Below are positions 2,678 through 33,185 of a stretch of 36,672 nucleotides of DNA, piece by piece. This DNA is from a virus: the IMG/VR virus record IMGVR_UViG_3300036944_000659, positions 1-36,672 of that record, one strand, 5' to 3'. A model generated the notes under the pieces. It had not been told where the DNA came from. It made no database searches and worked only from the letters and a program-made list of their open reading frames with translations. The translations under genes and the position numbers were made by a program. How positions within the stretch are numbered: the stretch's first letter is position 1; the number at the start of each line of letters is the position of its first letter.

Positions 2678-3199
2678 ATGGATTCAGATCAATTTGTAAA
2701 GCAGTTTTTAAGCCTCGCTTTTTTTGTAGAAAAGGAAACAGGCATTTTTGCGGAGGCACTACTGGCACATTCAGCGCTCGAAACTGGATGGGGAACAAAA
2801 GTAAAAGGAAACAATTACTTCGGAATTAAAGGGAAAAAGAACCTAGTCCGAACAAAAGAAATATCAGAAAGCCCCGATCTTAAATTTCCTGAAATCTATT
2901 CAATAACACCATTTAAAAAGAATGGTAAAACATATTATGAATACGATTGTAAAACTTGGTTTGATTCGTATTTAAGCCCGAAAGATAGTTTTCTGAAATA
3001 TGCTGAGTTTATAAAAAGCAATCCAAGATATTCTAAAGCACTAACTCAGGATAGCGCAGAGGGGTACTTAAGAGAGATTGCGCGCGCTGGATATGCAACA
3101 GGATTAAACTATGAAGAAACGATCTTAAACGTGCTTAAATCAGTTCAGAAGAGAATTAATAAATTAACTGTAACAGTGGCACAAGATTTGCGTAAATAA
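2678..3199 (+). CDS. Endolysin, glucosaminidase (GH73/FlgJ-like)
   Basis: A 173-residue muramidase/glucosaminidase of the GH73 type. The signature is at residues 20-50: ETGIFAEALLAHSALETGWG, with the catalytic Glu in ALETGWG, followed by NYFGIKG. Later conserved parts include FDSYLSPKDSFLKYAEFI and ARAGYATGLNYEETIL. Enzymes of this family cleave glycan strands of peptidoglycan at N-acetylglucosamine. There is no signal peptide, consistent with release through the neighbouring holin-like protein. It is flanked by three small membrane ORFs, forming a compact lysis module. Confidence 0.85.
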   Translation: MDSDQFVKQFLSLAFFVEKETGIFAEALLAHSALETGWGTKVKGNNYFGIKGKKNLVRTKEISESPDLKFPEIYSITPFKKNGKTYYEYDCKTWFDSYLSPKDSFLKYAEFIKSNPRYSKALTQDSAEGYLREIARAGYATGLNYEETILNVLKSVQKRINKLTVTVAQDLRK

Positions 3200-4468: not shown

Positions 4469-4548
4469 ATCCGTAATTTTTATTTGTTATCCGTATTAAA
4501 TTTCGTGGGTTAATCCCGTACTATTCTTACACAAACCGTTGTAGTGCA

Positions 4549-4914
4549 TTAGCCCACGCACACATTGCCAGTAATTTCATATGAAAATCCTGCAAGTTCA
4601 TCCGAAAGCAAATCGCCACTACTTTTATTTTGCTTATAGCTATTATCAAGCAACCAAGCCCCTATTTTAGAATCCCAAAACACTTGCATCTTACTTTGAA
4701 CTAAACCTTCGTCTGTTTCAGTCCAGTCGCTAAGTATATCCCCTTCGTATATTTCAATGCCGTGTTTATCGCACAATCCAGTAAACTGCTGTACGGTTAC
4801 ATGGTCAAGGCTAATAAGTTTATTTAGGTTCTTAAATCTCTGTATGTCCGCCCACAACATCATTTTTTTGCTTTCTTTATTCCAAGCTCTAAATTTAAGT
4901 CGGTTATTTCCCAT
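4549..4914 (-). CDS. YopX-like phage protein in a complete cassette
   Basis: A 121-residue protein opening NNRLKFRAWNKESKKMM, with a QQFTGLCDKHGIEIYEGDIL segment: the signature of the YopX family, frequent in phages of Firmicutes and Bacteroidota and of unknown function. The whole CDS lies inside one cassette bounded by GTTGTAGTGC (4935-4926, coding) and GCACTACAAC (4547-4538), so this is a classical whole-gene cassette rather than a chimera. The stop codon lies one base from the right boundary motif. Confidence 0.75.
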   Translation of the reverse strand: MGNNRLKFRAWNKESKKMMLWADIQRFKNLNKLISLDHVTVQQFTGLCDKHGIEIYEGDILSDWTETDEGLVQSKMQVFWDSKIGAWLLDNSYKQNKSSGDLLSDELAGFSYEITGNVCVG

Positions 4915-5441: not shown

Positions 5442-5792
5442 TTAAACAACTGCACTTTTGATACTTTCATGCAATTTTTTAAATGAGTTATTTTTAAGCT
5501 CATAAACCCTGCCGAATTGATTATGTTGAACTTTTACAAATTTATCCATGTATGTTTTAAATTCTCTTATTTCATTAACTGATAAATCACGCTCAAACAC
5601 ATTTGAATAATCAGTTGTTCGATGAAATCCCATCTTTTTTAATTCTTTTATATCTTGTTTTAAAACTATCAAAAAGTAATCTCTTGAGTTTTCGTCAATT
5701 CCGTTACCTTTAAATGTGTTTAAACTTACGTTAACTGCGAAGCATATTTCTTTTTCAAATAATACTTCAAAAATTGTTTTTTCGTTTTTCAT
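5442..5792 (-). CDS. Whole-gene cassette protein, unknown
   Basis: A 116-residue alpha/beta protein with the segment KFVKVQHNQFGRVYELKNNSFKKL; no family is recognised with confidence. The CDS is wholly inside a cassette bounded by GTTAGCCGT (5889-5881, coding) and ACGGCTAAC (5437-5429). It lacks an internal boundary peptide. An 85-bp A-rich leader precedes it. Confidence 0.65.
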   Translation of the reverse strand: MKNEKTIFEVLFEKEICFAVNVSLNTFKGNGIDENSRDYFLIVLKQDIKELKKMGFHRTTDYSNVFERDLSVNEIREFKTYMDKFVKVQHNQFGRVYELKNNSFKKLHESIKSAVV

Positions 5793-5856
5793 ATCGCTTT
5801 TTTAAAAATTTATATTCAAAGTAACTTTAATATTTTTTGATAAACTATGATATTTA

Positions 5857-9038: not shown

Positions 9039-9539
9039 CTACGACTTAACCCCCACAACCCGAAAACCAAACACTGATTCCGGTTCTTTTACGATCAGGA
9101 AAGTATAACAATCCCCAGGATAGCAGATTTCAATACCCTGTTTGGGAGACCTGATATTACGGTCATTATGTTCATTATTTACCCATTGGTCATTATATCG
9201 TTCAACATTAAACAATTTGATGCTATAATTCATAGCGTCCATTAATTCGACAAAATATCTTTTGCCTTTATTTTTTCGAGATACGCAATATAACGGTATT
9301 ATGCACATTACTTTGTCGCTTTCCCGAAAATCAACAATTGATTCAAAATAGTCATACATTTTGCCTTTTGAAAAGTATTTTTTTCGGGTGTCGGGTATCT
9401 CCTTAAAAGTATCTTCGCCAGTGATAATGTAATTACCGTGAACATTTATCTTTTCTGATCGGGTAATTTTCGCCCCGATTAATTCAGGATATATTGCCGT
9501 AACTTTCGGAGATTCGCTTTGAACTACTTGGGAACTCAT
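9039..9539 (-). CDS. Hypothetical early protein
   Basis: A 166-residue alpha/beta protein, not recognised. Notable parts are YPELIGAKITRSEKINVHGN, a basic patch SRKNKGKRYF and a closing VFGFRVVGVKS. It overlaps the upstream nuclease gene by 4 bp (ATGA type), so it belongs to the early operon rather than to the array. Its last codons merge into the first attC-like core, so its C-terminus may have been altered by cassette insertion. Confidence 0.6.
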   Translation of the reverse strand: MSSQVVQSESPKVTAIYPELIGAKITRSEKINVHGNYIITGEDTFKEIPDTRKKYFSKGKMYDYFESIVDFRESDKVMCIIPLYCVSRKNKGKRYFVELMDAMNYSIKLFNVERYNDQWVNNEHNDRNIRSPKQGIEICYPGDCYTFLIVKEPESVFGFRVVGVKS

Positions 9540-20661: not shown

Positions 20662-21078
20662 ATGGCACAATTTGAAAAAGGAAATAGAGCTGCGGAAAAA
20701 TGGACATTATCAGAGGCAACAGATGCTTTTGAATGGATGATGAACAATGCAATGGATGATAGTGATGTTTTATGCGTACAGGATGCTTATCTGGCATATC
20801 CTATGCGCGGTTCGGTATTCCATTATTTGATTGATAAATTTCCCGTTTTGGAAAAATTTAAAAGAGATATCCAAGACGTAATCATTTCACGGATAAATAG
20901 AAACGCATTAAGGAATGAATTTAATCCTACTGCTTCAATATGGAGACAGAAGCAATTAGGAGAAAAAGACACGCAATACCAGAAAGTTGAAGCCACCGTT
21001 GATAACGTCACCAAGCTAACGCCAGAGCAACGTGCCAAACGTATCGAAGAACTGAAAGCGAAATTAAACAATGATTAA
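20662..21078 (+). CDS. terS: Terminase small subunit
   Basis: A 138-residue helical protein that opens with a typical phage N-terminus (FEKGNRAAEKWTLSEA) and contains the small-terminase signature FNPTASIWRQKQLGEKD. The C-terminal part is basic (LTPEQRAKRIEELKAKL). Small terminases recognise the packaging site and load the motor. It overlaps the large-subunit gene by 8 bp. Confidence 0.8.
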   Translation: MAQFEKGNRAAEKWTLSEATDAFEWMMNNAMDDSDVLCVQDAYLAYPMRGSVFHYLIDKFPVLEKFKRDIQDVIISRINRNALRNEFNPTASIWRQKQLGEKDTQYQKVEATVDNVTKLTPEQRAKRIEELKAKLNND

Positions 21079-22555
21079 TGACACGGAACTTATTGAGCTT
21101 GAAAAGTTGATTTATGATGAATCGGTTTACCGGGCAAAAGATAATTTATTAGATTTTACCCGTCATACATTTTCAAAATTTCAATCTACATGGTTTCACG
21201 TTAATTATTACAAAATACTTGATCTTTTCGCAAAAGGGAAAATTAAGAAGATAATTATTTCGGTACCTCCGCAACACGGTAAATCACAAAATAGTTCTGT
21301 TCAACTTCCTGCTGATATGATAGGTCATAATCCTGACCTTAAGATTGCAACGGTTTGTTATTCGGCCACAAAAGCCAGGAAGTTTGGCCGTAAGACAAAG
21401 CAGTTAATGTCTGAAAAATCATACAAGGATGTGTTTGGTTCACGATTGGCTGGTATGGCAGACGGCAATTATATCAATACCGCCGAGGAGATGGAGATAG
21501 TCGGGCATGATGGCTCCTTAAAGATGGTAGGTTATGAGGGAGGGTTAACTGGTGATCCGGTGGACGTTCTTTTGATGGACGATTTATACAAGGATTGGAA
21601 AGAGGCCAATTCTCCCGTTATTCGGGAAAATGTAAAGGATTGGTATATTTCCGTGGCAGACACCAGGCTTCATAATGATTCCCAACAACTGATTGTTTTC
21701 ACGCGTTGGCACGAGGACGACCTGGTCGGATTTATTGAAAAAAATGAAGATGTAGTGTTAATTCATTCGTGGACACAGCTTGAAAATCCAAATCCTGATG
21801 TTTGGTACAAAATCAATTTCGAAGCTATAAAAACAGGAGAACCAACCGAAATAGACCCACGCAAACCAGGTGAACCACTATGGCCGGAACGTCATTCGAA
21901 AAAGAAATTATTAAAATCGAGATCAAAAGACCCGATAAAATTTGAATGTTTGTACCAAGGTAATCCTGCAAGTTCGGCAGGGCTCCTATATGGATCCGAT
22001 GGGTGGAAAACTTACACAGCATTACCCCCTGCTATCGTTCGTAAAAACTACACCGATACCGCCGATACGGGATCGGATAAGCTATGTTCAATTGACTATG
22101 ATGTTTGTGATGACGGGTTGGCTTATGTGGTCGATGTTAGATATACGGAAGAACCAATGGAAGTTACAGAACCATGGGTTGCCGGTGGATTTTTGAAAAA
22201 CAAAGTAAGCTATTCAGATATTGAAAGCAATAACGGAGGCCGTGGTTTTGCGCGTAAGATCAACGAAATTTGCAATCCAATTCAAGGCCGGATAAACACA
22301 CAGATAAATTGGTTCCATCAATCTGGGAACAAAGAAAGCCGGATCATATCCAACGCCGCAACTGTTAAACAGAGGATTGTTTTTCCTGATGATTGGCACT
22401 TGAGATGGCCTGACTTTTACAACGACGTAGTGAGATTTAAGCGCAATTTCAAGTCAAATGAGCACGATGATGCAGCCGACACATTGACCGGGATTGCGGA
22501 AAAGATGGACGACATACAAACAGGCTCCATGTTCCTAACCGCCGATATGCTTTAA
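21071..22555 (+). CDS. terL: Terminase large subunit
   Basis: A 494-residue packaging motor. The ATPase domain has VPPQHGKSQNSS (Walker A variant), VLLMDDLYKDWKEA (Walker B), and VFTRWHEDDLVG (motif III/coupling). The nuclease domain has CSIDYDVCDDGLAYVVDV (first acidic residues) and ends EHDDAADTLTGI, the usual closing motif. It translocates DNA into the prohead and cuts it. Confidence 0.9.
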   Translation: MINDTELIELEKLIYDESVYRAKDNLLDFTRHTFSKFQSTWFHVNYYKILDLFAKGKIKKIIISVPPQHGKSQNSSVQLPADMIGHNPDLKIATVCYSATKARKFGRKTKQLMSEKSYKDVFGSRLAGMADGNYINTAEEMEIVGHDGSLKMVGYEGGLTGDPVDVLLMDDLYKDWKEANSPVIRENVKDWYISVADTRLHNDSQQLIVFTRWHEDDLVGFIEKNEDVVLIHSWTQLENPNPDVWYKINFEAIKTGEPTEIDPRKPGEPLWPERHSKKKLLKSRSKDPIKFECLYQGNPASSAGLLYGSDGWKTYTALPPAIVRKNYTDTADTGSDKLCSIDYDVCDDGLAYVVDVRYTEEPMEVTEPWVAGGFLKNKVSYSDIESNNGGRGFARKINEICNPIQGRINTQINWFHQSGNKESRIISNAATVKQRIVFPDDWHLRWPDFYNDVVRFKRNFKSNEHDDAADTLTGIAEKMDDIQTGSMFLTADML

Positions 22556-22603: not shown

Positions 22604-22759
22604 TTTAGTAGTTTTAACCCTCTCGTAAAATTTGCAGAGTGCATTTTCATAACGTTTTTTTGCTGATGAATTAGCGTAAGCCATAAGCGATAAGCCAAAG
22701 AACCCGGCAATCTCTTTGTTTGTTAAGCCGAGTTCTTTTTTCAGTTGTTTAATAGTCAT
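22601..22759 (-). CDS. Mini helix-turn-helix protein
   Basis: A 52-residue protein, MTIKQLKKELGLTNKEIAGF, continuing FGLSLMAYANSSAKKRYENA. It resembles a single XRE-like helix-turn-helix (KELGLTNKEIAGFFGLS) with a short C-terminal helix. The ATG overlaps the stop of the preceding gene (ATGA). It is a candidate regulator acting at the palindromes upstream of its own operon and of the late promoters. Confidence 0.6.
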   Translation of the reverse strand: MTIKQLKKELGLTNKEIAGFFGLSLMAYANSSAKKRYENALCKFYERVKTTK

Positions 22760-23073
22760 TTTGTTTCAATCATTTTTCGCTTGCCTTTAGATGTGAGCTC
22801 AATGTAGTTGCCAGTTAACCCACCTCTAGGCGCATCGTTTTTTAATTCAAAGTCAATACCATTTCTAAGTCCTGCAAATCTTAATACTGCAATAGTATCT
22901 TCTGTATAATCCAAGTTCTTACAAAATCTTCCAGTACCAGAAGTCCAACAAGTCCTTATTCTGGTTTCCCAAGAATGATAAGGGTTTCCTGTCATTAAAC
23001 TTAATGCTAATTGATAACCTTTACTGCCTTTGTTTACGTTTTTTGTCCTTGCTAAAAATGTTGATTCTTTCAT
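22756..23073 (-). CDS. Hypothetical protein paired with the mini-HTH gene
   Basis: A 105-residue basic protein with WETRIRTCWTSGTGRFCKNL, DTIAVLRFAGLRNGIDFEL and a closing ELTSKGKRKMIETK. The last part could be a winged-helix-like segment. No family is named. It is the first gene of a two-gene leftward unit driven by a perfect promoter and preceded by a palindromic operator. It may be the partner, or the real DNA-binding regulator. Confidence 0.55.
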   Translation of the reverse strand: MKESTFLARTKNVNKGSKGYQLALSLMTGNPYHSWETRIRTCWTSGTGRFCKNLDYTEDTIAVLRFAGLRNGIDFELKNDAPRGGLTGNYIELTSKGKRKMIETK

Positions 23074-23151: not shown

Positions 23152-23165
23152 ATGTTCTAAAACAT
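23152..23165. promoter_or_regulatory. Operator between divergent promoters
   Basis: ATGTTCTAAAACAT, same family as the late-promoter sites. It lies between the leftward promoter of the mini-HTH unit and the rightward promoter of the predicted ncRNA, 1 bp from the latter's -33 box, so one bound protein could control both. Confidence 0.7.
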
Positions 23166-23166
23166 A

Positions 23167-23197
23167 TTGCATAAGTCAAAAACATTAATTAGATTTG
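23167..23197 (+). promoter_or_regulatory. Promoter of the predicted ncRNA
   Basis: TTG (23167-23169), 20 nt, TAGATTTG (23190-23197): a perfect match to the consensus. No ORF follows; transcription would start near 23204. Confidence 0.7.
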
Positions 23198-23203
23198 TTT
23201 TGT

Positions 23204-23436
23204 CTTTCCGACAGACGTAAAACAGTTAGGCGTTCTTTTAAACAGACGGGCAAAATCATAATTTATTAATCCATTATTAGTAATAACAATGAATTCGAGT
23301 TTCTATTTACAACAAATAACGTCCGTCTAACGCCTGGTCGCGGTTCGATTCCGTTATCAGGCACACATTGTTTTCTGGGGAATTGGTTCAATTTAGTTGT
23401 TTTTGCCTCCTTCGCGATTGCGGGGGAGGTTTTTTA
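23204..23436 (+). ncRNA. Predicted structured ncRNA with tRNA-like minihelix
   Basis: About 230 nt with no useful ORF, between a perfect promoter and an intrinsic terminator. A long stem pairs AGGCGTT (23228-23234) and AGACGG (23244-23249) with the continuous CCGTCTAACGCCT (23322-23334). Next, 23332-23362 can form an alternative 12-bp hairpin with loop TTCGATT. Its outer 7 bp (GCCTGGT/ATCAGGC) and inner 5 bp, the T-loop-like heptamer and the ACA that follows copy a tRNA acceptor/T-arm minihelix. The D and anticodon arms are absent. The first stem and the minihelix share three bases, so they may be alternative folds. Confidence 0.55.
23405..23436 (+). terminator. Intrinsic terminator upstream of the portal promoter
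   Basis: GCCTCC...GGAGG with inner pairing CGC/GCG, followed by TTTTTT. It ends the predicted ncRNA and insulates the late portal promoter. The sequence resembles the terminator at 30714-30745. Confidence 0.8.
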
Positions 23437-23452
23437 TTTTAAAAATACAACC

Positions 23453-23483
23453 TTGCAAAACATGTTATAAAACATTAATTTAG
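23453..23483 (+). promoter_or_regulatory. Late promoter with embedded operator (portal)
   Basis: TTG at 23453-23455, 20-nt spacer, TAATTTAG at 23476-23483 (one mismatch to TAnnTTTG). The spacer is filled by the palindrome ATGTTATAAAACAT (23462-23475). The same TTG-CAAAAC-palindrome arrangement is found at 25651 and 31513. Confidence 0.75.
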
Positions 23484-23501
23484 CCACAAATACATTTGCA
23501 A

Positions 23502-24803
23502 ATGAATTTTTTCAATTGGATAGTTCCGGCTAAAATCAAGCGGCAATTTGCCTCCGCTATTTATGAGTATTGGATCACTCAAGGCACAGCTAACACCATG
23601 GAAGATGATACCGGTGTTTTCCTTGCCGATGCGTATAAAGGCAATATTTCCGTGTATTCGATTATAGATCGCATTGATAAGATGCGAAGACAGGCACCCA
23701 TGCGATTATATCAGAAGAAAGACGGAAAGGCCATAGAGGTGACAGATCACGAGCTGAACCGATTCCTTTCAAAAGTAAATCCAGAAACGGGATTTAATGA
23801 TTTCGTCTCACAAGTGTTGATATATCGCCTCATTTGTGGAGAGAATTTCATTTACGCGCCACGATTAAATTCAGGATTAAACGCAGGGAAAGCCGCCGAG
23901 CTTCGGGTATTACCGGCCTCGGATGTAGAAATAATTGAAGGAACGCCATTAGACCCTGTTCGCGGGTACCGGATGGAAAACTCAACTATATCGCAGGAGT
24001 TCCCAAAGGCCGATGTAATTCACCAAAAACTATTTGACCCTTTATGGTATAGGAACAACACCCTACACGGGATGTCCCCAATAGTTGCGGCAAACAAGAC
24101 AGTATCACGGTTAAATGAAGCCGATATTACTCAATTAAAGCAACTTGAAAATCAGGGGCCAAAATATGCGTTATTCAAAAAGACCACAGGAACACAGCAG
24201 GGTATAAGCCAAAGATTAAGCGCCGAACAGCAAGACGATATTTCACAAAAAATAAAGACGGCAAGTAAATCAAGTAATCGCGGGTTGCCGTTAGTTTTAA
24301 AGGAAGAGTTCGGAAAACTTGACCTTGGAACAAACCTTGCAGATATGGCACTAACCGAGCTGACAGAAGCAGGCATTGTTGCCTTATGCAGTGTTTACGG
24401 AATGCCACCAGAACTATTCGGCTACGGCCAAAAGACGTACAATAACATGGGAACGGCTCGGAAGTCGGCTTGGACTGATTGCGTAATGCCGAACATGGAC
24501 AGTGTGGCCGACTTAATGAATGAGGCCATTATCTGGGGGTCAAAATATGCCGATCAAGGGTATTTTTTCAAGATGGACTATTCCGAAGTCGAAGAGCTCC
24601 AAGACGGTATGAAATCGAAAATCGAGTGGATGAACGCCGCAGGTCTCCCGATGAATGATGTATTTGAAGCCGCTGGATATTCCCGAGTAGATAATCCACG
24701 GATGGATGAACCGCGAGTGCCGAGTATGACCATGTTTTTATCTGACTTCGACCTTCCGCCCGATATTGAAAAAAGCTACGAGGATTATTTAAAAGTGAAA
24801 TAA
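23502..24803 (+). CDS. Portal protein (HK97-type)
   Basis: A 433-residue portal. The ATG at 23502 is chosen, 18 bp after the -7 box. Family features: N-terminal YKGNISVYSIIDRIDKMRRQ, middle NPETGFNDFVSQVLIYRLICGENFIYAP, LPASDVEIIEG, LTEAGIVALCSVYGMPPELFGYG and KTYNNMGTARKSAWTDCVMP. The portal dodecamer forms the DNA channel at one capsid vertex. Its TAA overlaps the next ATG (TAATG). Confidence 0.9.
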   Translation: MNFFNWIVPAKIKRQFASAIYEYWITQGTANTMEDDTGVFLADAYKGNISVYSIIDRIDKMRRQAPMRLYQKKDGKAIEVTDHELNRFLSKVNPETGFNDFVSQVLIYRLICGENFIYAPRLNSGLNAGKAAELRVLPASDVEIIEGTPLDPVRGYRMENSTISQEFPKADVIHQKLFDPLWYRNNTLHGMSPIVAANKTVSRLNEADITQLKQLENQGPKYALFKKTTGTQQGISQRLSAEQQDDISQKIKTASKSSNRGLPLVLKEEFGKLDLGTNLADMALTELTEAGIVALCSVYGMPPELFGYGQKTYNNMGTARKSAWTDCVMPNMDSVADLMNEAIIWGSKYADQGYFFKMDYSEVEELQDGMKSKIEWMNAAGLPMNDVFEAAGYSRVDNPRMDEPRVPSMTMFLSDFDLPPDIEKSYEDYLKVK

Positions 24804-31512: not shown

Positions 31513-31544
31513 TTGCAAAACATGTTATAAAACATTAAATTTAG
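31513..31544 (+). promoter_or_regulatory. Late promoter with embedded operator (tape measure)
   Basis: TTG at 31513-31515, 20-nt spacer holding ATGTTATAAAACAT (31522-31535), then TAAATTTA(G) at 31536. Nearly identical to the promoters at 23453 and 25651. The ATG of the tape measure follows at 31560. Confidence 0.75.
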
Positions 31545-31559
31545 CAAAAATACATTTCC

Positions 31560-33185
31560 ATGAAGTTAGCGGATCTTTTCATCAAATTAGGGCTAAAAAA
31601 GGACGGGTTCGACCGTGGTATTGACGGTGCGAAACAGAAAACAAATGCGTTTAGTTCTGCCGTTAAGAAGATCGGCGGAATTATGGCAGGGGCTTTTGCA
31701 GTCGAACGGATTTTCTCATTCGGAAAAGAGCTACTAGAATTGGGGGGTATTGCTGAAGGTGTAGAATCGGCCTTTAAACGAATTGCAGGTGTAAACACCC
31801 TTAACGATCTTAAGGATGCAACGCGCGGAACGGTTTCGGAACTGGAATTAATGAAGCGCGCTGTTTCTGCTCAAAACCTTGGGCTTCCAGTTGAAAATCT
31901 TGCTAGCCTTTTTGAATTTGCCACTAAACGCGCGCAAGATACGGGGGAGTCAGTTGATTATTTAGTTAATTCAATTGTTACTGGTATTGGGCGAAAATCT
32001 CCGTTAATACTTGATAATCTTGGCATTAGTGCCATACAGCTACGCGAAAAACTAAAAGGAGTAGGTATGGAATCGGCCAGTGTTGCGGAAGTTGCCGCAG
32101 CAGTTGGTGAAATCGCAGCAGATTCAATGCGAGAATCGGGTGAGATTATTGAGACTAATGCAATTAAGATGCAGAAGATGAAAGCTGCATGGGACGATTT
32201 TAAAAAGTCATTGGCAGAAAGTGAAGAAATAAATAAAGCTGGTAGCGCGATTGCTAATTTTGGAACAGCATTTATAAAAAACTTACCGAATGTAAAAAAA
32301 GATTGGGAAAATTGGGGAAGAACATTCAATGCGATAATGACCGGAGGAATTTCGTTATTATGGCAAAGGAAAAAAGCTGTAGAAGATTTAACAAATACTA
32401 CCGAAACCGCAATAAAAAAGGATGAGGAATTCAATAATCTACTTGCCGAGATAAATGTCAATGCCGAGGAAAATAATAAGATATGGGAGGAGAAATTTAA
32501 ACTTTGGGAAAAACAAAACGAGCAAACAAGAAAAGCCATCGAATTAACCGATTCCTTAACCGCTGCTAATGAAAAATACATGGATTCAATACCATCAGGC
32601 AATGACTTTTTTACTAAAGGAGATGCGGACGTTTCCGGCATAGTTGGAGGCGGGGGTGTGTTTGATATGTTAAGCCCAGAGAAAGAAGAAGATATTGGGT
32701 TTGACACGGAAGCTAGAGTTGCCCAAATTGAGGAATTTAGCGGAATGATGTCACAGGTTGCTTCGATGGCAGTATCGGCAATTGAGCAAATATCTAAGGC
32801 TTTCGGTGAGGCTTTAGTTTCTGGGGATTGGGATAATTTCGGGAAAGCAGTATTGCAGTCAATAGGTGGGTTCCTTCAACAAATGGGTGGGTTAATGATT
32901 GCCTACGGGGTGTTTATGGCTCTGTTTGACAAGGCAATTAAAGCGGGTCCCATTGGTTGGCCTTTGGCTATTGCTGCTGGTATTGGATTAGTGGCCGCTG
33001 GTGCTGCTATTTCTTCACTTGCTTCCGGTGGTGTAAGCGGGGCATCAACAGGCTACTCAGGCGCAACCTCATCAAGCAACTCATCATCAGCAGCCATAAA
33101 CGGAGACGTTCGGTTCGTGTTGGAAGGTGATAAATTAGTAGGAGCAATAGATAACAGTCGTTCACGCAGAAGATTAACAAGCTAA
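31560..33185 (+). CDS. Tail tape measure protein
   Basis: A 541-residue protein. It opens LADLFIKLGLKKDGFDRGID, typical of tape measures in this phylum. A long helical region (about 30-360) includes LELMKRAVSAQNLGLPVENLA and MESASVAEVAAAVGEIAADS. A hydrophobic stretch lies at about 430-500 (GGLMIAYGVFMALF, GWPLAIAAGIGLVAAGAAISSLA), then a Gly/Ser-rich end. At the usual 1.5 angstrom per residue the tail would be roughly 80 nm. The TAA overlaps the next ATG. Confidence 0.9.
   Translation: MKLADLFIKLGLKKDGFDRGIDGAKQKTNAFSSAVKKIGGIMAGAFAVERIFSFGKELLELGGIAEGVESAFKRIAGVNTLNDLKDATRGTVSELELMKRAVSAQNLGLPVENLASLFEFATKRAQDTGESVDYLVNSIVTGIGRKSPLILDNLGISAIQLREKLKGVGMESASVAEVAAAVGEIAADSMRESGEIIETNAIKMQKMKAAWDDFKKSLAESEEINKAGSAIANFGTAFIKNLPNVKKDWENWGRTFNAIMTGGISLLWQRKKAVEDLTNTTETAIKKDEEFNNLLAEINVNAEENNKIWEEKFKLWEKQNEQTRKAIELTDSLTAANEKYMDSIPSGNDFFTKGDADVSGIVGGGGVFDMLSPEKEEDIGFDTEARVAQIEEFSGMMSQVASMAVSAIEQISKAFGEALVSGDWDNFGKAVLQSIGGFLQQMGGLMIAYGVFMALFDKAIKAGPIGWPLAIAAGIGLVAAGAAISSLASGGVSGASTGYSGATSSSNSSSAAINGDVRFVLEGDKLVGAIDNSRSRRRLTS

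Follow-up and report, generated by a model that had tools for sequence, protein, structure and literature searches.

What does a tailed phage encode in the gap between its TerL and portal genes, where a preliminary description had noted a candidate RNA resembling part of a tRNA? We examined this locus in a phage represented by an IMG/VR record of 36,672 bases (the window, which is the whole stretch of DNA analysed). The earlier observation proved largely real: the locus seems to encode a small non-coding RNA resembling just the upper half of a tRNA, which is the portion that tRNA-trimming enzymes recognise. A search begun from this RNA also uncovered candidate anticodon-less mini-tRNAs, dispersed between genes in many phage genomes, where they carry no annotation.

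Setting of the candidate RNA gene

The gene content of the window is that of a tailed phage (TerL, portal, head morphogenesis, protease, major head protein, helicase, and primase), and its portal has relatives in Cellulophaga and Flavobacterium phages. The pattern TTG-N20-TAnnTTTG, a promoter type characteristic of Bacteroidota, matches eight times in the window against 1.03 expected; because of this overrepresentation, together with the portal relatives, the host is probably a member of the Bacteroidota. The features of the gap and its borders are as follows.

21071-22555: TerL gene
22756-23073, minus strand: open reading frame between TerL and the candidate RNA locus
23152-23165, no strand: operator-like inverted repeat ATGTT-CTAA-AACAT, directly 5' of the RNA promoter
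23167-23197, plus strand: Bacteroidota-type promoter TTG-N20-TAGATTTG, an exact match to the pattern
23204-23436, plus strand: predicted non-coding RNA, its start placed from the promoter and its end from the terminator
23405-23436, plus strand: predicted intrinsic terminator, hairpin 23405-23430 and T tail
23462-23475, no strand: operator-like repeat ATGTT-N4-AACAT ahead of the portal gene
23496-24803: portal gene

The promoter described earlier as perfect is indeed an exact match lying just 5' of the RNA start; taken alone it is weak evidence, since the pattern recurs so often in the window, and the same pattern occupies the corresponding position (9100-9130) in the relative L007. The terminator was likewise recovered, by a pattern match, and the absence of a conserved open reading frame was borne out, the sole ATG frame (found by eye) being 13 codons from 23291, with its ATG lost in the close relatives L004 and L005. 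The segment 23167-23436 appears to be a stand-alone RNA gene.

The repeat ATGTT-N4-AACAT occurs six times in the window (10849, 23152, 23462, 25660, 30167, and 31522) against 0.13 expected, and five of the copies precede the candidate RNA, the portal gene, the protease gene (25660), and the genes after 30167 and after 31522. In L007 it precedes a T-arm RNA (at 9075), the portal gene, and the protease gene. The repeat is probably the operator of a late regulon and, because it stands ahead of both the candidate RNA and the structural genes, suggests that they are under joint control. A repeat of the portal promoter region, about 48 bp long and about 92% identical, was also seen at 31513-31560, ahead of the open reading frame 31560-33185.

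Fold and identity of the RNA

The predicted fold places a tRNA-like minihelix toward the 3' end of the RNA, preceded by a further stem.

23228-23234, plus strand: AGGCGTT, an alternative partner of 23329-23335 (AACGCCT), mutually exclusive with the minihelix
23244-23251, plus strand: 5' strand of a stem, AGACGGGC, pairing with 23321-23328 at probability 0.89-0.99
23321-23328, plus strand: 3' strand of that stem, GTCCGTCT, with AAC between it and the minihelix
23332-23362, plus strand: acceptor/T-arm minihelix, with GCCTGGT/ATCAGGC (7 bp), CGCGG/CCGTT (4 of 5 bp), and loop TTCGATT
23363-23366, plus strand: tail ACAC, A73-C74 in tRNA numbering, with CCA not encoded

The 12-bp hairpin with a T-loop followed by ACA, as first described, is thus present; 11 of its 12 pairs form, the exception being a C-U mismatch, and the letters that follow are ACACA. 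Its pair probabilities are at least 0.96; its folding energy is -17.4 kcal/mol (z -5.1), a stability reached by none of 200 shuffled sequences, and the whole RNA also folds better than its shuffles (z -3.2). Hairpins with at least 11 of 12 pairs and a TTCRANY loop are expected 0.027 times per shuffled window (1 per about 37), and the window holds exactly one. The tRNA-like geometry of 7 plus 5 bp that the preliminary description had seen is there, although it belongs to the 3' hairpin 23332-23362 itself. Its nested stem held in one half: the AGACGGGC/GTCCGTCT pairing is well supported, and a T-to-C change at 23322 in the relative L005 turns a G-U into a G-C pair and so retains it, whereas AGGCGTT/AACGCCT has a probability of about 0.03, and forcing it costs 2.7 kcal/mol. 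Its GCCT is also needed by the minihelix; this second pairing would almost never form at equilibrium, and it could be a transient co-transcriptional alternative.

The RNA matched no Rfam family of any kind above cut-off. As a tRNA, defined by a cloverleaf with an anticodon arm, it was found by neither ARAGORN nor Rfam; the same held for a tmRNA, including permuted and TLD-only forms, and here the third pair is C-G, not G3-U70, and a D-loop is lacking. A permuted tmRNA like that of the relative L050 (see below) was rejected because the 5' acceptor partner GCCTGAT is absent from the entire window RNA. Rfam matches to FMN, the L10 leader, and the PyrG leader lay under the gathering scores and were dismissed. 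No stretch of 12 nt or more complementary to the RNA was found in the rest of the window, 11-mers being the longest; a regulatory RNA is possible. In the phage collection, the whole locus had no sequence relatives, and a 49-nt minihelix query gave weak matches only, to tRNA 3' ends.

Relatives and a wider class of mini-tRNAs

The RNA is kept in L002, L004, and L005, whose contigs are about 97-99.6% identical to the window, and covariation among these close relatives is accordingly slight, consisting of the one G-U to G-C change. The one informative relative is L007, the next-nearest (TerL 87% and portal 76% identical), whose TerL-portal gap holds four T-arm motifs against 0.002 expected. They fold into three aberrant cloverleafs with closing stems, none of which is called by ARAGORN.

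9146-9268 of L007: cloverleaf 1, closed by TTGCAACGG/CCGTTGCAA, with two T-arms; Rfam tRNA score 23.8 bits, below the cut-off of 29
About 9371-9435 of L007: cloverleaf 2, without a D-arm
9441-9529 of L007: cloverleaf 3, closed by GTGATATAA/TTATATCAC

A terminator scan of L007 came back empty since the hairpin loop exceeds the limit of the scan; the hairpin is visible in the L007 fold. The tails are ACAC, GCAA, and GCAG in L007 and ACAC in the window, so that all four elements carry R73-C74. For the 3' flank of the window RNA, alignment with L007 succeeded at elements c and a (P of about 0.007 and 0.035, before any correction for the three comparisons made), whereas none was obtained for the body of the RNA, from promoter to T-arm (P = 0.68). 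Between the two phages the acceptor helix and T-arm persist while the intervening sequence changes, down to nothing in the window. Because everything between them changes, we take the tRNA top to be the probable functional part of the RNA; this is our main argument, and it draws on one comparison.

At greater distance the gap is variable. L050 (TerL 77%) carries a complete permuted two-piece tmRNA there, on the opposite strand (4487-4876, minus; Rfam RF04321, 59.8 bits; tag GKTINLFNIEAKVAA). No T-arm RNA was found in the TerL-portal gap of L032 or L033 (77% TerL identity), and nothing in that of L056. L068 carries tRNA-His, tRNA-Leu, and tRNA-Gln directly downstream of TerL (5541-5856, minus), and other relatives have tRNA-Met upstream of it. 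The gap adjoining TerL looks to be a recurrent site of tRNA genes in this group of phages.

More distant portal and TerL relatives carry a 41-nt element directly after a stop codon, GCGTA-TATGGTGAAA-GGGTGG-TTCGATT-CCACCC-TACGC-AC, and variants of it with compensated acceptors. Such mini-tRNAs were located in the following relatives of the window phage; those of the first four stand directly after a stop codon and show compensatory acceptor changes.

L043, about 10860
L046, about 11454
L048, about 11098
L127, about 342
L161, about 7176
L163, about 14217

Pattern scans of the viral collection and a pairing scan, used instead of a MAFFT alignment because the latter is not structure-aware, gave 105 distinct D-loop-bearing mini-tRNAs of about 41 nt, with 87 different acceptor helices and a modal stack of 12 bp; the R73-C74 tail is present in 53 of them. 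The scans fixed the ATGGT loop and the T-arm sequence, so these features are biased, while acceptor pairing and tail lay outside the pattern; the thresholds were chosen after the first examples were known. Neither 4.5 Mb of shuffled sequence nor the reversed sequence yielded a single mini-tRNA, and 1.22 Mb fetched purely by homology held five distinct ones against none when reversed. When five altered loop motifs were scanned as a control, six matches resulted, all to a single motif and with duplicates not merged. Most of the counted mini-tRNAs (87 of 112) lie outside crude open reading frame calls, and 53 of the 70 with neighbours on both sides are flanked by two genes of their own orientation.

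Some phages carry many copies. On the minus strand of L137 (IMGVR_UViG_3300048996_000071), eight near-identical mini-tRNAs with GCCTG..CAGGC acceptors lie within 8.7 kb, in successive gaps of one gene series (T-loops near 3155, 4173, 5492, 5887, 6400, 6790, 7171, and 8092), placed as if punctuating its transcript. L231 has six copies of GCGAGCC-AATGGTTAGA-GCAGG-TTCGATT-CCTGC-GGCTCGC on its minus strand (about 920-1790), some with diverged acceptors, spread through AT-rich noncoding repeats. Unannotated mini-tRNAs are also present in isolates, namely Mycobacterium phage George (L283; NC_042312), Streptococcus phage JX01 (L285), Mycobacterium phage Indlulamithi (L286), and Lactococcus phage 63302 (L287). 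In Bacillus phage Ray17 (L284; MH752385, about 38.8-39.0 kb), three tandem T-arm motifs, apparently aberrant tRNA-like folds, lie unannotated beside a head protein gene. No description of the mini-tRNA class was found in open-access papers.

The window element shares with the mini-tRNAs of L043, L137, L231, and others an acceptor plus T-arm of about 12 bp (11-14 bp in the class), a TTCGATT loop conforming to TTCRANY, the R73-C74 tail, the lack of an anticodon, and carriage by a phage. Theirs, however, have a GG-bearing D-like loop of 8-16 nt (about 7-16 nt in the class) and are sited between operon genes, whereas the window acceptor runs straight into the T stem and the RNA is equipped with a promoter and terminator of its own. 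Lacking the D-loop, the window element varies the mini-tRNA theme and falls outside the class in the strict sense.

Candidate functions of the tRNA top

Hairpins made of an acceptor stem, T-stem, and T-loop are classical model substrates that bacterial RNase P cuts efficiently, the enzyme using the 12-bp stack as a ruler and D73-C74-C75, which pairs with RNase P RNA, as an anchor (PMC11143913). Processing by RNase P is also established for phage-induced regulatory RNAs, for polycistronic mRNAs, and for tRNA-like 3' ends (PMC4919922). The window RNA has the coaxial stack of about 12 bp closed by a T-loop (11 of 12 pairs, TTCGATT), and of the 3' RCCA used for pairing with RNase P RNA its tail ACACA has R73 and C74 without C75. 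Because the minihelix equals the hairpin model substrate, we favour a tRNA-end-processing element, a reading to which we give somewhat less than an even chance. A short noncoding RNA would be made alongside the late structural genes, its 3' domain modelled on the acceptor and T-arm portion of a tRNA. Recognising the T-loop and the 12-bp stack, host RNase P would cleave at the C23331/G23332 junction, after which host RNase Z and the CCA-adding enzyme may trim and extend the 3' end after A23363; cleavage would release a 5' RNA of about 128 nt containing the AGACGGGC/GTCCGTCT stem and a minihelix of about 31 nt. The selected feature would be recognition by tRNA-end-processing enzymes, not decoding.

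Several observations count against such processing. Position -1 is C where U is the favoured base, CCA is not encoded, and one T-stem pair is mismatched; a cut is not needed to end the RNA, since it carries its own terminator. There is one informative relative, L007, with which the body cannot be aligned; L032 and L033 have no T-arm RNA in the gap, and the window element is missing the D-loop of the class.

Comparison with known systems is instructive. The AT-type hairpin substrates of RNase P (PMC11143913) have the same 7-plus-5-bp stack, 7-nt T-loop, G1-C72 pair, and unpaired tail starting with R73-C74, but the window element is natural and phage-encoded, its tail is ACAC in place of RCCA, C stands at -1, and a further stem precedes it. 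The C4 antisense RNA precursor of phages P1 and P7, an RNase P substrate (PMC4919922), is likewise a short phage RNA of the kind RNase P would process, whereas the window RNA has no C4-like sequence or antisense target and does have a real T-arm. The TLD-only tmRNA of phage DS6A (PMC4131195) resembles the window RNA in being phage-encoded and in retaining the tRNA top but neither tag nor anticodon; the window RNA differs in having no D-loop, no G3-U70, and no Rfam tmRNA match.

This last likeness leads to an alternative that we consider unlikely, in which the minihelix is a decoy titrating a host binder of tRNA tops, such as SmpB, EF-Tu, RNase P, or a tRNA-targeting defence nuclease. A molecule resembling the DS6A RNA is a strong inhibitor of tmRNA and may act by titrating SmpB (PMC4131195, PMC11915505), and the complete tmRNA of L050 sits in the same gap; yet the minihelix lacks the D-loop present in the tRNA-like domain of tmRNA, its third pair is C-G and not the G3-U70 alanine identity pair, and its partner is not known. 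Much the same low probability attaches to the view that tRNA genes land in the TerL-portal gap and that the RNA is one of them in decay, now functionless. The real tRNAs near TerL in L068 and other relatives and the three aberrant cloverleafs of L007 would fit such a relic, but promoter, operator, and terminator are all intact, the acceptor helix pairs inside the hairpin and is not a broken half, and drift would not be expected to leave all four elements with their acceptor, T-arm, and R73-C74.

The preliminary description had also offered a packaging RNA, for which the one argument is position beside packaging genes, and a regulatory RNA. That the RNA is either, with the T-loop hairpin merely a stable 3' module, strikes us as quite improbable: the location between terminase and portal and the operator-like repeat common to late genes would agree with it, but the window offers no antisense match of 12 nt or more, Rfam offers no match, and the body is not conserved in L007. 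Least credible by far is the suggested trace of a tRNA-type attachment site, in which the element would be a host tRNA 3' end that serves integration. The element does resemble a tRNA 3' end; nevertheless, an exact match to its 21-nt 3' end, GGTTCGATTCCGTTATCAGGC, was found in none of 84,980 species genomes (one genome each, among which the host may not be included), which makes an attachment site in a known tRNA unlikely. The three viral matches of GGTTCGATTCCGTTATCAGGC are all the same phage, and no integrase was found in the subset of window open reading frames scanned, the record being possibly incomplete. The earlier proposal of a tRNA mimic, by comparison, gains support from the acceptor plus T-arm geometry, the T-loop, the R73-C74 tail, and the retention of acceptor and T-arm in the L007 RNA.

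Returning to the processing element, the broader mini-tRNA class may be read likewise, as processing signals between genes. We suggest tentatively that the multicopy mini-tRNAs of many phages serve as intergenic sites at which host RNase P, perhaps together with RNase Z, is brought in to cleave polycistronic transcripts, a counterpart of mitochondrial tRNA punctuation, with the window RNA and the L007 cluster as a stand-alone branch. Annotation overlooks tRNA tops that lack an anticodon, since tRNA finders require one. If RNase P does cut the window RNA and the wider class, phages divide their transcripts using a housekeeping enzyme of the host, which could be tested in cultured carriers such as Mycobacterium phage George, Streptococcus phage JX01, and Lactococcus phage 63302. 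If these RNAs are decoys instead, they would amount to a novel, RNA-based way of interfering with tRNA-handling enzymes. Under either reading, a recurrent phage RNA element that is absent from the Rfam release searched would get a name.
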